DNA of 64,000 nucleotides, from NCBI RefSeq assembly GCF_017876495.1, contig NZ_JAGIOB010000001.1:992001-1056000 (forward strand), read 5' to 3'. Below, in pieces: positions 50,176 to 54,393 of this stretch. Origin of the DNA: Microlunatus capsulatus. Lineage in GTDB: Bacteria; Actinomycetota; Actinomycetes; Propionibacteriales; Propionibacteriaceae. A program made the position numbers and the translations under genes. How positions within the stretch are numbered: the first letter of the stretch is position 1; the number at the start of each line of letters is the position of its first letter. The notes under the pieces were generated by a model. The model did not search any database and was not told where the DNA came from. It worked only from the letters and a program-made list of their open reading frames with translations.

Positions 50176-50342
50176 GACCGCGAGCGTAGTCGGCACCTCC
50201 GACAGCCCGCCCGCGCGCGGAATCCGCAGCACCCCCCGGCGTGGTGCGTGCGGGGCCGGGTGCCACAGTGGTGCCGGTGCGCCCGGCAACGGTGCGCCAG
50301 ACCCCACCCGCACCCCGGCGGGGGGAACGAGACGGAGGATCG

Positions 50343-50831
50343 ATGAGCGAATCGACGCAGGGTCCGAGCCTGGGCGCGGCGGACCTCGAGGGACCGGCCG
50401 ACGGCGGCGCTGACGGCATCACGGGCATCCAGGACGGCGGGGCCGACGGCGGCGCCGACAGCGGCTCGGAGGGTCCCGCCGACGGCGGCGCCGAGGGCAC
50501 CCCGGGCGTGCAGGACGGCGGGGCCGACGGCGGCGCCGAGGGTCCGGCCGACGGCGGCGCGGACGGCACCCCCGGTGTCTCCGACGGCGGTGCTGACGGC
50601 GGTGCTGACGGCGGGGCCGAGGGTCCGGCCGACGGCGGCGCGGACGGCACCCCCGGTGTCTCCGACGGCGGCGCGGACGGCGGCGCCGAGGGCCCCGCTG
50701 ACGGTGGCGCGGACGGCACCCCCGGTGTCTCCGACGGCGGCGCGGACGGCGGCGCCGAGGGCCCGGCCGACGGCGGCGCCGACGGCACCCCCGGTGTCTC
50801 CGACGGCGGCGCCGACGGCGGCGCGCACTGA
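50343..50831 (+). CDS. acidic Gly/Asp/Ala-rich tandem-repeat protein, possible precursor peptide
   Basis: A 162-residue protein: 15-residue head then six repeats (starting at residues 16, 43, 66, 93, 116, 139) of 23 or 27 residues that begin EGPADGGA, contain DGTPGVSD and end DGGADGGA. No Cys, Lys, Arg or aromatic residue occurs; the only His is the last residue. The last copies are nearly identical at DNA level (69-bp period from 50643). GGAGGATCG precedes ATG 50343, so translation is well supported. Followed by a hairpin and a JmjC oxygenase gene. Function unknown. Confidence 0.75.
   Translation: MSESTQGPSLGAADLEGPADGGADGITGIQDGGADGGADSGSEGPADGGAEGTPGVQDGGADGGAEGPADGGADGTPGVSDGGADGGADGGAEGPADGGADGTPGVSDGGADGGAEGPADGGADGTPGVSDGGADGGAEGPADGGADGTPGVSDGGADGGAH
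50562..50831 (+). repeat. 69-bp coding tandem repeat
   Basis: The block GACGGCACCCCCGGTGTCTC begins at 50562, 50643, 50712 and 50781; spacing is 81 then 69 then 69 bp. The 12-bp excess is one extra Asp-Gly-Gly-Ala insertion. High identity implies recent expansion or recombination-driven homogenisation. Confidence 0.9.
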
Positions 50832-50915
50832 GCGCTGGTCAGCCTTGAACCCCACCACCCCCTCAGCCGAGGACCCCACCACCGGTGCGGTCGCGGCCGG
50901 GTCGGGTGGAGCAGG

Positions 50916-50947
50916 CAGCACGCCCGGCGTCCGCGCCGGGCGTGCTG
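50916..50947 (+). terminator. perfect 14-bp hairpin between repeat-protein and JmjC genes
   Basis: CAGCACGCCCGGCG (50916-50929), loop TCCG, CGCCGGGCGTGCTG (50934-50947). It ends on the first base of the proposed JmjC GTG. Such a structure could end most transcripts after the repeat gene, allowing limited read-through, or could hide the downstream start. Confidence 0.75.
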
Positions 50948-52134
50948 TGCTCCCCCGCCTCGTCGCCGTCGACCCCGAGACCTTCGCCCGCGAGCACTGG
51001 GGCCGCAGCGCCCTGCTGTCCCCCGCCGGCGACCTGCCCCAGGACTTCAGCGACCTGCTGAGCTCCGACGCCGTCGACGAGCTCGTCTCCGAGCGCGGGC
51101 TGCGGACCCCCTTCCTGCGGGTCGCCAAGAACGGCTCCACGCTGGCCGACAAGACCTTCACCGCCCCGGGCGGCGTCGGCGCCGGCATCGCCGACCAGGT
51201 CAGCGACGACAAGCTCGTCAGCCTCTTCGCCGACGGCTCGACGATGGTCCTCCAGGCGCTGCACCGCGTCTGGCCGCCGATCATCGCGCTGTGCCAGCAG
51301 CTGGCCGCCGAGCTGGGTCACCCGGTGCAGGCCAACGCCTACGTCACCCCGCCCCAGAACCAGGGCTTCAGCAACCACTACGACGTGCACGACGTGTTCG
51401 TGCTGCAGATCGAGGGCGAGAAGCGCTGGCAGATCCACGCGCCCGTCCTGGAGTCGCCGCTGCGCGACCAGCCCTGGAGCGACCGCAAGGCCGCCGTCGC
51501 CGCCCGGGCGGCCGAGGAGCCGCTCCTCGAGGCGGTCCTCAAGCCGGGTGACTGCCTGTACCTGCCGCGGGGCTACCTGCACGCGGCGACCGCCCTGGGC
51601 GGGGTCAGCACCCACCTGACCATCGGCGTGCACAGCTGGACCCGCTACGCCCTCGCCGAGCAGCTGCTGCAGCAGGCGCTGCGGACCGTGGCCGCGGACC
51701 CCGTCGTGCGCGGGTCGCTGGCCCTCGGCGTCGACCTGGGACGGCCGGAGGACCTCGCCGGCGACGTCGACGTCGTCCGGGACGCCCTCGTCGCCGCTCT
51801 CGGCGCCGCCGACCGCGGGCGGCTGTCGGAGGTGCTCGACGCCGGCGCCCGCGGCACGCAGCGCGCCGCACCCGTCGGCCCGCTCCGCCAGCTGCGGACC
51901 GCGCAGGAGCTGGAGCCCGGCACGGTGCTGGCGCTGCGGGGCCACCTGGCCGCCCGGCTGGTGCCTCGCGGCGCCGGAGCGGTGCTGCGGAGCCGGGCCG
52001 CCGACCTGCCGCTGGTCGAGGCCGAGCTGGCCGCCGTCGGTCAGCTGCTGGAGGCCGGCAGCGCCACCACCGCCGCGCTCGGGGAGGACCTGGCCCGACG
52101 GCTGGTGCTCGCCGGGCTGGTCGTCGCCGGGTGA
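50947..52134 (+). CDS. JmjC/cupin_4-family Fe(II)/2-oxoglutarate oxygenase
   Basis: A 395-residue cupin oxygenase of the YcfD/ribosomal-oxygenase type. VDPETFAREHWGRSALL opens the family domain; NHYDVHDVFVLQIEGEKRW carries the HxD metal ligands and GDCLYLPRGYLHAA the distal His. Relatives hydroxylate Arg, His or Asp side chains of proteins or peptides. GTG 50947 is preferred because the hairpin precedes it; TTG 50845 is in frame and possible. Overlaps the next gene (GTGA). The adjacent repeat protein is a plausible substrate, which is inference. Confidence 0.85.
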   Translation: MLPRLVAVDPETFAREHWGRSALLSPAGDLPQDFSDLLSSDAVDELVSERGLRTPFLRVAKNGSTLADKTFTAPGGVGAGIADQVSDDKLVSLFADGSTMVLQALHRVWPPIIALCQQLAAELGHPVQANAYVTPPQNQGFSNHYDVHDVFVLQIEGEKRWQIHAPVLESPLRDQPWSDRKAAVAARAAEEPLLEAVLKPGDCLYLPRGYLHAATALGGVSTHLTIGVHSWTRYALAEQLLQQALRTVAADPVVRGSLALGVDLGRPEDLAGDVDVVRDALVAALGAADRGRLSEVLDAGARGTQRAAPVGPLRQLRTAQELEPGTVLALRGHLAARLVPRGAGAVLRSRAADLPLVEAELAAVGQLLEAGSATTAALGEDLARRLVLAGLVVAG

Positions 52135-53060
52135 GCCTGGCCCCCGCTCCGGGCCGGGCCGGCGGCCCGCCGCGCTGCGCCGACGCCGCCGAGCTGCGCG
52201 GCGACGCGGGCGTCGGCACCGCCCCGCCCGCCGCCCGATGGCTGCTGCTGGAGCACCCCGGGCCGTGGGCGGTCGACGCCGTCCCCGGCTCGGGGGTGGA
52301 CCCGGCGGTCCTGGTCCCCCTGGGCGCCGCCGCCGCCCGGAGCGCGACGCGCATCCTGCTGGTCCGCCGGCCCGGCCGCCGACCGGCACCGGAGCGTCGC
52401 ACCTGGCTGCTGAGCGGACCCGGCCTGGGCACCGTCGAGGGCCGCTGGCGCACCGACGCCGACCTGGTCGACGCCGTCGCCGCGCTGGGGGCGCCCGACC
52501 CCGACCCGGTGCTCACCGGGCCGTCGGCCCCCGTCCTGCTGGTCTGCGCCCACGGGGTGCACGACACCTGCTGCGCCGTCCGCGGCCGACCGGTGGCGGC
52601 CGCCCTGGACCGGGCCCACCCCGGGCTGGTCTGGGAGTGCAGCCACGTCGGCGGCGACCGCTTCGCCCCGAACGTCGTCGTGCTGCCCGACGGCTTCTAC
52701 TACGGCGGGCTGGCCCCGACGACCGCCGTCGCCACCGTGGCCGCGCACCTGGCCGGCCGGGTGGAGACCGCGCACCTGCGCGGCATGTCGCGCTACCCGC
52801 CCGTGCAGCAGGCCGCCGTCGTCGCGGCGCACGAGGCCTACGGGCCGCTCGCGGCCGGGGCGGTCGTGGTCACGGACGCCCGCAGCGTGCCGGCCACCGG
52901 GACCGCCGGTGCCCGCACGATCGTCGAGATGCGGGTCGCCGGCCTCCCGGACGCGGTCCGGGCCGAGGTGGTCGCGGAGCGCCGCCCGCCGACCCGGCTC
53001 ACCTGCCGGGCGGCCCGCGACGGCGTCGCGACCGAGTACCGGGTGGAGCGGCTCGGCTGA
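52131..53060 (+). CDS. sucrase/ferredoxin-like thioredoxin-fold [2Fe-2S] protein
   Basis: A 309-residue Suc_Fer-like protein. VCAHGVHDTCCAVRGRPVA and ECSHVGGDRFAPNVVVLPDGFYYGG are the family signatures, with Cys residues that bind a [2Fe-2S] cluster in thioredoxin-like ferredoxins. It could supply electrons to an oxygenase. Translationally coupled to the JmjC gene by GTGA at 52131-52134, so the two products are probably made in parallel. Convergent with the DUF1479 gene. Confidence 0.85.
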   Translation: MSLAPAPGRAGGPPRCADAAELRGDAGVGTAPPAARWLLLEHPGPWAVDAVPGSGVDPAVLVPLGAAAARSATRILLVRRPGRRPAPERRTWLLSGPGLGTVEGRWRTDADLVDAVAALGAPDPDPVLTGPSAPVLLVCAHGVHDTCCAVRGRPVAAALDRAHPGLVWECSHVGGDRFAPNVVVLPDGFYYGGLAPTTAVATVAAHLAGRVETAHLRGMSRYPPVQQAAVVAAHEAYGPLAAGAVVVTDARSVPATGTAGARTIVEMRVAGLPDAVRAEVVAERRPPTRLTCRAARDGVATEYRVERLG

Positions 53061-53097: not shown

Positions 53098-54393
53098 TCA
53101 GACCGGCGCGGGCTCCAGCCCCAGGCCGCGGCGGCCGATCGCGTTGAGGTCCTCGACGCCGAACCGGTCGGGCCAGCCGGCCTCGTAGTCCTCGACGGGG
53201 AAGTCACCCGGGCTCCGGCCCTCGAGGAACGCCTCCCGGACACCGGCGACGTAGGTCTCGTTCTTGGTGCACCGCGGCGCGGCCGGGATGTACATGACGT
53301 TGCCCCAGCCCTTCTGGTCGGTCACCGGGGCGACCGCGTGGATCATGTCGCAGTGCCACCAGACCGAGTCGCCGGGGGCGACGTCGGGGATCCCGGCCAG
53401 GCCCTCCAGCAGCAGCGGGTGCCACCTCTCGTCGACCGGGAAGGTCCGGTTGGGCTGGACGCCGCACATGTCGTCCTCGGGGACGTCGTCCAGCAGCGGG
53501 CGGAGCATGAGGTAGGCCATCGCGCCCGGGATCGGCACCGTGTGCAGCACGCCCTGGTCGTGGTCCATCTCGCTGAGGGCCGTCCAGCCCTGGAAGGTGC
53601 GGAAGGCCGAGCACATCGTCGAGCCCGGGTACTGCACGGCGTCGGTCCGGTAGGCGGCGTCCCAGGGGTCGTAGGCCGCGACGTCGCCGGAGAAGAGGTG
53701 GCGGAAGTGGCGCTGGTAGCCCTCCGACATCCACAGGTCGAGGGTGCCGGGGTCCAGGTGCGTGCCCAGCCCGCCCGAGTCGGTGCCCGGCGGGCGTCGG
53801 CGGATCCGGTCGGGGTACATGGTGTCGACGTCGGGGTCGAACCAGACCCGGCCCTCGGACTCGTGCGTCCAGCGCGCGTTGAGGAAGGACTGGACGGTGG
53901 CCATCCGCGGCGACTGGCGCGCCTCCATCTGCGAGCGCGACCAGTAGATCGGGTAGATCTCGGGCTTGGACATCGCCAGGGTGCCGAAGAAGTCGTCGGC
54001 CGGGCCGGTGTAGTGCTCGAAGAACTGGTTGCCGTCGACGTAGTCGACCGCCGCGCGGTCCCAGGCCTCGGCCTGCTCGCGCGGGAAGTGACCGCGGACC
54101 ACGACGCACCCGCGCCGCGCCAGCTGCGCGAGCTGGGCCTCGCTGACGGTGCCCGCCTCGATGTCGGCGTAGGCGATCTCGGGCCACACCTGCTCGCCCC
54201 GGGCCCGGGTGGCCACGATGTCGGCGACCTCGGCGCGGACGCCCTCCTCCACCTCGGCGAAGACGTCGGCGACGCTGCGCCCCGACGCCTCGATGCGGGC
54301 GCGCAGCGCGCGCTTGATCTCCCGCGTCGCCGCGGGGATGTCGTCGGGGATCGTCTCCCAGTGCGGCAGGCCGGTCGGGGTGTCGGTGCTCAT
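53098..54393 (-). CDS. DUF1479/YbiU-family Fe(II)/2-oxoglutarate dioxygenase
   Basis: A 431-residue protein of the YbiU group. LGTHLDPGTLDLWM gives HxD, DSVWWHCDMIHAV the distal His, and NVMYIPAAP the 2-oxoglutarate side. Length and the GCVVVRGHFPREQAEAWD opening fit the family. Its natural substrate is unknown. Start ATG 54393 with GGAGGTTCG upstream. It is divergent from a ROK regulator with dyad operators between them, so that regulator probably controls it. Confidence 0.9.
   Translation of the reverse strand: MSTDTPTGLPHWETIPDDIPAATREIKRALRARIEASGRSVADVFAEVEEGVRAEVADIVATRARGEQVWPEIAYADIEAGTVSEAQLAQLARRGCVVVRGHFPREQAEAWDRAAVDYVDGNQFFEHYTGPADDFFGTLAMSKPEIYPIYWSRSQMEARQSPRMATVQSFLNARWTHESEGRVWFDPDVDTMYPDRIRRRPPGTDSGGLGTHLDPGTLDLWMSEGYQRHFRHLFSGDVAAYDPWDAAYRTDAVQYPGSTMCSAFRTFQGWTALSEMDHDQGVLHTVPIPGAMAYLMLRPLLDDVPEDDMCGVQPNRTFPVDERWHPLLLEGLAGIPDVAPGDSVWWHCDMIHAVAPVTDQKGWGNVMYIPAAPRCTKNETYVAGVREAFLEGRSPGDFPVEDYEAGWPDRFGVEDLNAIGRRGLGLEPAPV

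Follow-up and report, generated by a model that had tools for sequence, protein, structure and literature searches.

An acidic repeat protein paired with a JmjC oxygenase and a Suc_Fer-like ferredoxin in Microlunatus capsulatus: a candidate precursor-modification cassette recurring in actinobacteria

In the present study, we analysed a three-gene locus of Microlunatus capsulatus, contained in a stretch of 64,000 nucleotides of contig NZ_JAGIOB010000001.1 (positions 992,001 to 1,056,000; hereafter the window, to which all coordinates refer). Three plus-strand genes, encoding an acidic repeat protein, a JmjC oxygenase and a ferredoxin, follow one another at this locus. The initial annotation of the trio, comprising a six-unit repeat gene of 162 residues, a perfect 14-bp hairpin, a JmjC gene and a Suc_Fer gene coupled to it by GTGA, was reproduced, and the features are as follows.

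50334-50339, plus strand: Shine-Dalgarno (SD) sequence GGAGGA of the repeat gene, read in the sequence.
50343-50831, plus strand: gene for an acidic multi-repeat putative precursor of 162 residues, read as an open reading frame (ORF).
50916-50929/50934-50947, plus strand: perfect hairpin between precursor and oxygenase, 14 bp, 100% complementary, with a 4-nt loop.
50845 or 50947 to 52134, plus strand: JmjC_2/ROX-type Fe(II)/2-oxoglutarate oxygenase (PF08007, E 1.9e-28).
51925-52128, plus strand: C-terminal winged-helix-like domain of the oxygenase, residues 327-394 of the predicted model, with elements in bbb-aaa order (b, strand; a, helix).
52131-53060, plus strand: Suc_Fer-like, thioredoxin-like [2Fe-2S] ferredoxin (PF06999, E 9.5e-17).

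The repeat protein comprises a short N-terminal segment followed by six EGPADGGADGTPGVSDGGADGGA-like units (about 50391-50825), whose starts are spaced by 27, 23, 27, 23 and 23 residues. Its residues include 59 Gly, 27 Ala, 26 Asp, 8 Glu and a single His, and Cys, Lys, Arg, Asn, Phe, Trp and Tyr are all absent from the 162 counted. The differences among the units are 92 synonymous and 49 nonsynonymous, compared with 27-29% synonymous among the possible changes (unit pairs are not independent), and the protein sequence of the repeats therefore appears to be selected. Neither Pfam nor NCBIfam returned a match for the repeat protein, and the genome of M. capsulatus contains one match each for the repeat protein and the oxygenase.

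Several observations connect the repeat gene with the oxygenase gene. First, the two are neighbours well beyond this genome. A search of species genomes by tblastn, with the oxygenase alone as the query (E 1e-3 or better), gave at least 574 oxygenase relatives, and the best 80 of these form the named set, in which Microlunatus, Nocardioides, Phycicoccus, Terrabacter, Arthrobacter, Streptomyces, Brevibacterium and Modestobacter are among the genera represented. A repeat ORF was observed immediately 5' of the oxygenase in 78 of the 80 loci; 76 of these ORFs end at or just before the oxygenase, and the other two (L097 and L126) stand at contig edges and were scored as repeats with their final residues visible. 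At L091, the upstream region is masked with N. A ferredoxin gene lies 3' of the oxygenase in 65 of the 80. The class was sampled by an even draw of 296 genomes, three species of which also occur in the named set. The oxygenase was matched in 95 of these genomes and the repeat in 27, and 26 of the 27 repeats immediately precede the oxygenase, sharing its strand, at a distance of no more than about 160 bp. The initial annotation had proposed looking in other actinobacteria for repeat genes beside cupin_4 and Suc_Fer genes, and regarded pairs of the latter two consistently lacking a repeat as evidence against its proposal; these counts reveal the former arrangement and the opposite of the latter.

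Similar results were obtained at closer and greater distances. Among 57 genomes of M. capsulatus and its kin, 26 contain the oxygenase and 21 the repeat protein, and 19 of the 21 repeat matches (that of M. capsulatus included) lie directly 5' of the oxygenase; in G005, the pair is split over two contig ends, and the match in G049 was rejected as a PTTEP-type protein read in another frame. A repeat ORF precedes the oxygenase in all 23 of the kin loci L002-L024 (only the end of the ORF is visible in L009, at a contig edge). Type B repeats, defined below, precede it in L025 and L026 and an acidic non-repeat ORF in L028, and ORF reading recognised nothing upstream in L027 and L029. In other classes of the phylum, a type B precursor was present at all 15 oxygenase loci that 198 genomes yielded at E 1e-60 or better. 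The recurrence of the same gene order across the phylum indicates that the trio is not a product of chance, and an accidental or isolated repeat was therefore ruled out.

Second, the kind of precursor changes together with the oxygenase. Distant oxygenases are preceded by different precursor types at the position taken by the DGGA-type repeat (type A), as read from the ORFs before the oxygenase.

Type B precursor: repeats of DADGTD, DATDTTDGD or DADAAD.
Type C precursor: about 36 residues, ending SDGTDSSSDFI.
Type D precursor: ends DSDGSDG, GENRDG or similar.
Type E precursor: ends GRSDGND or similar.

The typing of 159 oxygenases (156 distinct) gave 110 of type A, 12 B, 9 C, 6 D, 3 E, 2 A0 and 17 untyped, with six rows relabelled by hand and L185, which has a mixed DGGAD/DATD core, counted as A by pattern. 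An oxygenase tree was drawn by a quick method, in which long branches meet, for 90 of the 159 rows, type A being subsampled to 40 plus the window and L185 and two contig-edge A rows being left out. The typed rows of this tree require five changes of precursor type, the minimum possible for six types, and when the untyped rows are counted as a seventh group, the number rises to 11, compared with a shuffled mean of 45.2. Thus, precursor type follows the oxygenase tree. Because linked genes are inherited together, this agreement is a sign of pairing and not proof of chemistry.

Types A and B also have an N-terminal segment in common. Its pattern, L-x-D-D-[DE]-[IM], was matched by 29 of 106 precursors of type A and by 8 of 9 of type B, and a looser, leader-like L-x-D-[DEA]-[DEQ]-[IMV] was read by eye in 15 of 15 precursors of other classes. 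Among the 106 type A precursors, Cys is absent from 104, Trp from 106, Tyr from 101, Phe from 97 and Lys from 91, and the number of units and the spacing of Asp vary freely. The nine type C loci (L199, L200, L202-L206, L208 and L212) carry well-conserved peptides of about 36 residues, such as MDPIEVEVEDLAEVTSRDVTAGGDSDGTDSSSDFI, before the JmjC gene. Two Streptomyces plasmids (L149:2801-5057 and L151:2749-5000) encode peptides of 45-48 residues ending GGGTGRSDGND, followed by a JmjC gene and then an aldo/keto reductase, and these loci are likely a separate type of ribosomally synthesised and post-translationally modified peptide (RiPP). On an S. clavuligerus plasmid (L148:2793-4188), a 48-residue Asp/Pro-rich peptide directly precedes a JmjC_2 gene, behind which the opposite strand encodes an S9 peptidase.

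Third, the expression layout resembles that of a strongly translated first gene and weaker enzyme genes. The initial annotation had described the locus as an abundant precursor, a hairpin and less expressed enzymes, and this description extends to the other loci. The SD sequence of the precursor matches GGAGGA at 5 or 6 of 6 positions in 109 of 115 loci (105 of 111 distinct precursors), a test biased by the partial use of the SD sequence in choosing precursor starts. The best candidate SD sequence of the oxygenase is at the random level (68 of 115 loci with an in-frame ATG or GTG candidate, the only start codons tried). The start of the window oxygenase is uncertain, either TTG at 50845, with the hairpin inside the gene, or GTG at 50947, with the hairpin just before it, and no good SD sequence was read before either codon. 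In the window, the 120 nt that follow the stop codon of the repeat gene folded with a z-score of -3.33. In 78 of the 80 named loci plus the window, the 90 nt past the precursor stop had a median z-score of -3.67 against dinucleotide shuffles and were below -2 in 69 of 79, compared with 1 of 79 at each of two control positions inside the oxygenase and 7 of 115 regions preceding the precursor gene. The 90-nt value of the window itself is only -0.4 because its hairpin begins at about +85. Perfect stems of at least 10 bp were found in 18 of 79 gaps by a stem scan, a weaker test than that of energy, and the sequence of the stems is not conserved. Such structured RNA would be consistent with a partial terminator or with an element governing RNA processing or stability. 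A search of Rfam with eight loci other than the window returned only two tRNAs. An upstream block, about TTCCCA ... TTAGGGTGATCACGGGCGGTG, is common to seven loci of the Arthrobacter group (L073, L085, L090, L098-L100 and L121), most of which also have an ATCAG...CTGAT inverted repeat ahead of the SD sequence; the block had no Rfam match in the two loci searched, L073 and L099.

The enzyme encoded by the second gene is well defined. The HxD...H metal triad (codons of His at 51376, Asp at 51382 and His at 51580) is invariant in alignments of 25 and 44 oxygenases, and the N and K positions of an NO66-like motif are invariant as well. The structure model (predicted local distance difference test, pLDDT, 94.8) aligned with NO66 over its whole length (model residues 1-395; Z 29.6, root-mean-square deviation 4.9, 373 residues aligned), and MINA53 (Z 26.5) and YcfD (Z 18.9) were further matches among the folds listed by Foldseek. 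The predicted structure thus has the ROX fold, and its full-length match covers the JmjC, dimerisation and C-terminal winged-helix domains of ROX enzymes.

The third gene begins within the stop of the second, the two overlapping as GTGA. The window ferredoxin contains C139-X8-C148 and H172-VGG-D176 (Asp codon 52656-52658), and its best Foldseek match was Aquifex Fd4, with a weak E of 1.7e-3, a probability of 1.00 and a template-modelling (TM) score of 0.67 by target, followed by FeSI (E 6.2e-3). In the judgeable loci of the combined set, a ferredoxin lies behind 90 of the 108 type A oxygenases and all 11 of type B, and a same-strand ferredoxin was found behind none of the 9 C, 6 D, 3 E, 2 A0 and 17 untyped loci. 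At type D loci, a diverged copy on the opposite strand can adjoin, right behind the oxygenase in G151 and, by the listed places, likewise in G180. In other classes, a ferredoxin lies behind 13 of 15 oxygenases, with HxGGD in 12 and HxGGC in one, and one of the two loci without it ends at a contig edge.

C-X8-C (C139 and C148) is invariant in 34 of 34 aligned cassette ferredoxins. HxGGD was observed in 65 of 65 cassette ferredoxins of the named set and 35 of 36 of the class survey, the exception having Cys (100 of 101 rows; 97 of 98 distinct proteins). Stand-alone Suc_Fer proteins, of which 28 were taken from a larger list, have His at this position in 20 cases, Asp in seven and neither in one; four of the seven Asp rows belong to genomes carrying repeat and oxygenase but no adjacent ferredoxin. 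The HxGGD ferredoxins of L245, L248, L249 and L250, encoded away from the JmjC gene in genomes G144, G117, G100 and G131, are likely trans-encoded partners. A Cys two residues before the motif His, present in 28 of 34 cassette ferredoxins, might serve as a cluster ligand in place of Asp. L185 and L189 have a second Suc_Fer gene, encoding canonical HxGGH, in the vicinity of the JmjC gene but not behind it.

The surroundings of the trio were less constant. Neighbours within 5 kb on either side of the 80 named loci were grouped after a crude ORF filter, and the 25 largest groups were inspected. The only widely recurring neighbours are the oxygenase (77 loci) and Suc_Fer (58 by this filter); the next groups are an ORF antisense to JmjC (16 of 80) and a scattered ABC-ATPase (11 of 80), and no other group exceeds nine loci. 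One gene beyond the trio was also noted in the window.

53098-54393, minus strand: Gig2-like gene (PF07350, profile match), convergent with the cassette.

No Gig2-like gene was seen among these 25 groups. Carriage as phage or plasmid cargo was rejected, since no phage match was obtained and the 22 plasmid records, all from Streptomyces, each covered less than 80% of the query; a defence system was rejected with no PADLOC match. Iron, zinc and stress-sigma control were likewise set aside, as consensus patterns for IdeR/DmdR, Zur, Fur-like regulators and sigB showed no clear excess in 115 upstream regions over one shuffle each (for sigB within one mismatch, 6 of 115 vs 1 shuffled).

Comparison with known systems places the trio near several of them. 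The ROX enzymes (NO66/RIOX1, MINA53 and YcfD; PF08007) share with the cassette oxygenase the full-length fold of the model, including the C-terminal domain, and the HxD...H triad and NAYxTPP, HYD, GEK and PRGxxH motifs align with those of NO66. However, the cassette oxygenase is regularly paired with an upstream Asp-rich precursor. A precedent for JmjC chemistry on a RiPP precursor is biphenomycin, in which the JmjC enzyme BipG gamma-hydroxylates Orn (PMC12707348); BipG and the cupin-like Orn hydroxylase PbsQ resemble the cassette enzyme as JmjC or cupin-like oxygenases acting on a ribosomal precursor (PMC12707348, PMC12257519). Biphenomycin cores have Phe-Arg-Phe-type motifs and are also modified by a multinuclear non-heme iron-dependent oxidative enzyme (MNIO) and a B12-dependent radical S-adenosylmethionine enzyme (B12-rSAM), whereas the cassette cores are Asp/Gly/Ala or Asp/Thr/Ala repeats with no conserved Arg, and no MNIO or B12-rSAM partner recurs nearby. 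A 2025 survey of RiPP recognition elements (RREs), which required the bbb-aaa order, reported that some eukaryotes carry RREs fused to PF08007 and that bacterial homologues lie in RiPP-like contexts (PMC12710340). PF08007 with a C-terminal bbb-aaa domain is also what the cassette oxygenase model presents; section 6 of that survey, in contrast, mentions neither a DGGA nor a DADGTD precursor, nor a Suc_Fer partner, nor any chemistry (PMC12710340). The bis-histidinyl thioredoxin-like ferredoxins Apd1 and Aim32 (Suc_Fer, PF06999) share family, fold and the C-X8-C half of the motif with the cassette proteins, but their HxGGH (PMC11138216) is replaced by HxGGD in 97 of 98 distinct cassette proteins. 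With this replacement, the window protein is a member of the Suc_Fer family but not, by motif, of the bis-His subtype.

The initial annotation knew of no named system with this trio, and none was found in the literature searched, which contained no description of the repeats, of a JmjC and Suc_Fer pair or of the trio (many subscription-journal papers, bioRxiv and supplements lay outside its scope); DGGADGGA, ADGGADGG and EGPADGGA occurred in none of the texts searched. Fusions of PF08007 with an RRE and JmjC enzymes acting in RiPP pathways are already known; the trio itself is apparently undescribed.

Herein, we propose that the locus is a RiPP-like cassette in which the repeat protein is the substrate of the oxygenase, a reading for which gene context argues strongly and to which we assign a probability of about 0.8. 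The strongly translated first gene would provide a polyanionic, presumably disordered precursor, and the stem-loop behind it may lower enzyme expression or protect the precursor mRNA. The JmjC_2 oxygenase would act repeatedly on this precursor, which its C-terminal winged helix could hold, and would most likely hydroxylate Asp at the beta carbon. The ferredoxin may act as redox partner in an auxiliary or later step, such as the reduction of a metal bound to the product. The product itself may either remain an intracellular polyanion or be cleaved and leave the cell. Asp is our guess for the target because it is the sole reactive side chain common to the DGGA, DADGTD and DADAAD cores. In JmjC hydroxylases of the FIH and ROX types, the usual site of oxidation is the beta carbon of the target residue, and beta-hydroxyaspartate is therefore the best guess for the product, although we would put the odds of beta-hydroxylation of the precursor at only about even. 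Metal binding, suggested by hydroxy-aspartate chemistry alone, is a rather unlikely function of the product. Somewhat less likely still is the most far-reaching picture, in which phylum-wide ribosomal polyanions, with tens of Asp converted to beta-hydroxyaspartate in DGGA, DADGTD or DADAAD chains, would form a genetically encoded polymer chelating hard metals (Fe3+ or Ca2+), and a dedicated ferredoxin, its [2Fe-2S] cluster bound by Asp or a nearby Cys instead of a canonical His, would pass electrons to the loaded product or to a second modification.

Several points weigh against this proposal. Modification of the precursor is predicted from gene context. The repeat search was positive in only 26 of the 95 class genomes carrying the oxygenase; in many of the others, ORF reading reveals other precursor types or missed repeats. 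No precursor type was assigned to 17 of the 159 oxygenases, among them L028 and L148, whose acidic upstream ORFs fit no type pattern, and the DD leader motif is present in only 29 of 106 type A precursors, those of Streptomyces and Arthrobacter being examples without it. At L117 (Arsenicicoccus cauae) and L181, two sister oxygenases among the close JmjC kin, the position of the repeat gene is taken by an acidic ORF without repeats, which may be a degenerate or a different precursor. The C-terminal domain has no sequence support as an RRE, since 31 C-terminal segments gave no PF05402 match and no match to a solved RRE, and the likeness is therefore limited to the order of elements. No clear iron or zinc regulator box was found upstream of the precursor. 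Among the neighbour groups within 5 kb of the trio there is no protease group and no widely shared exporter, and maturation may involve unlinked enzymes.

The ferredoxin is also inconstant, as Suc_Fer is missing beside 18 of 108 type A loci. Among eight genomes searched, four (G003, G015, G018 and G345), three of which are 95-100% complete, contain repeat and oxygenase but no Suc_Fer match; the ferredoxin is thus not essential to the repeat/oxygenase pair. The initial annotation had supposed that the ferredoxin could supply electrons to the oxygenase. Since 2-oxoglutarate oxygenases need no donor protein and half of these eight genomes lack a Suc_Fer match, that supposition is unsupported as stated.

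Three other explanations were considered. The most probable of them is a special case of our proposal, in which unlinked proteases would cut the repeats into small modified peptides that are then exported, making the locus a secreted multi-core RiPP. Tandem 23-residue units, a strong SD sequence and intergenic structure are in keeping with it, as are the reported RRE fusions to PF08007, with bacterial homologues in RiPP-like contexts (PMC12710340), but within 5 kb there is no peptidase group and only the scattered ABC-ATPase (11 of 80), and the cores, some as plain as DADAAD, have no evident cleavage residue; we hold this case to be possible but improbable. Clearly less probable is that the repeat protein is never modified, for instance as a polyanionic metal buffer, and that the other two proteins, as a separate redox or sensing module, use it only as a scaffold or regulator. 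The polyanionic composition with few hydrophobic residues, the freely varying unit number and Asp spacing and the lack of a protease group would agree with this explanation, but the short, non-repeat precursors of types C-E, each with one Asp-rich tail, precede related JmjC genes in a manner resembling enzyme-substrate pairing. Least probable of all is a true ribosomal oxygenase like YcfD or NO66 beside a co-regulated repeat protein of other function, which the whole-length model matches to NO66, MINA53 and YcfD would favour but against which stand the repeat ORF directly 5' in 78 of 80 loci, the agreement of precursor type with enzyme clade and the finding of a match in only 95 of 296 class genomes, as a ribosome modification would be expected to be widely kept.

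The trio is a common arrangement, with at least 574 oxygenase relatives and, in the best 80 examined, the repeat in 78 and the ferredoxin in 65. With it, ROX-type oxygenases gain a defined, locally encoded and highly repetitive candidate substrate, and chemistry, processivity and substrate recognition therefore become directly testable. Moreover, the change of ligand from HxGGH to HxGGD is tied to genomic context, and may provide a handle on the role of the Suc_Fer family.

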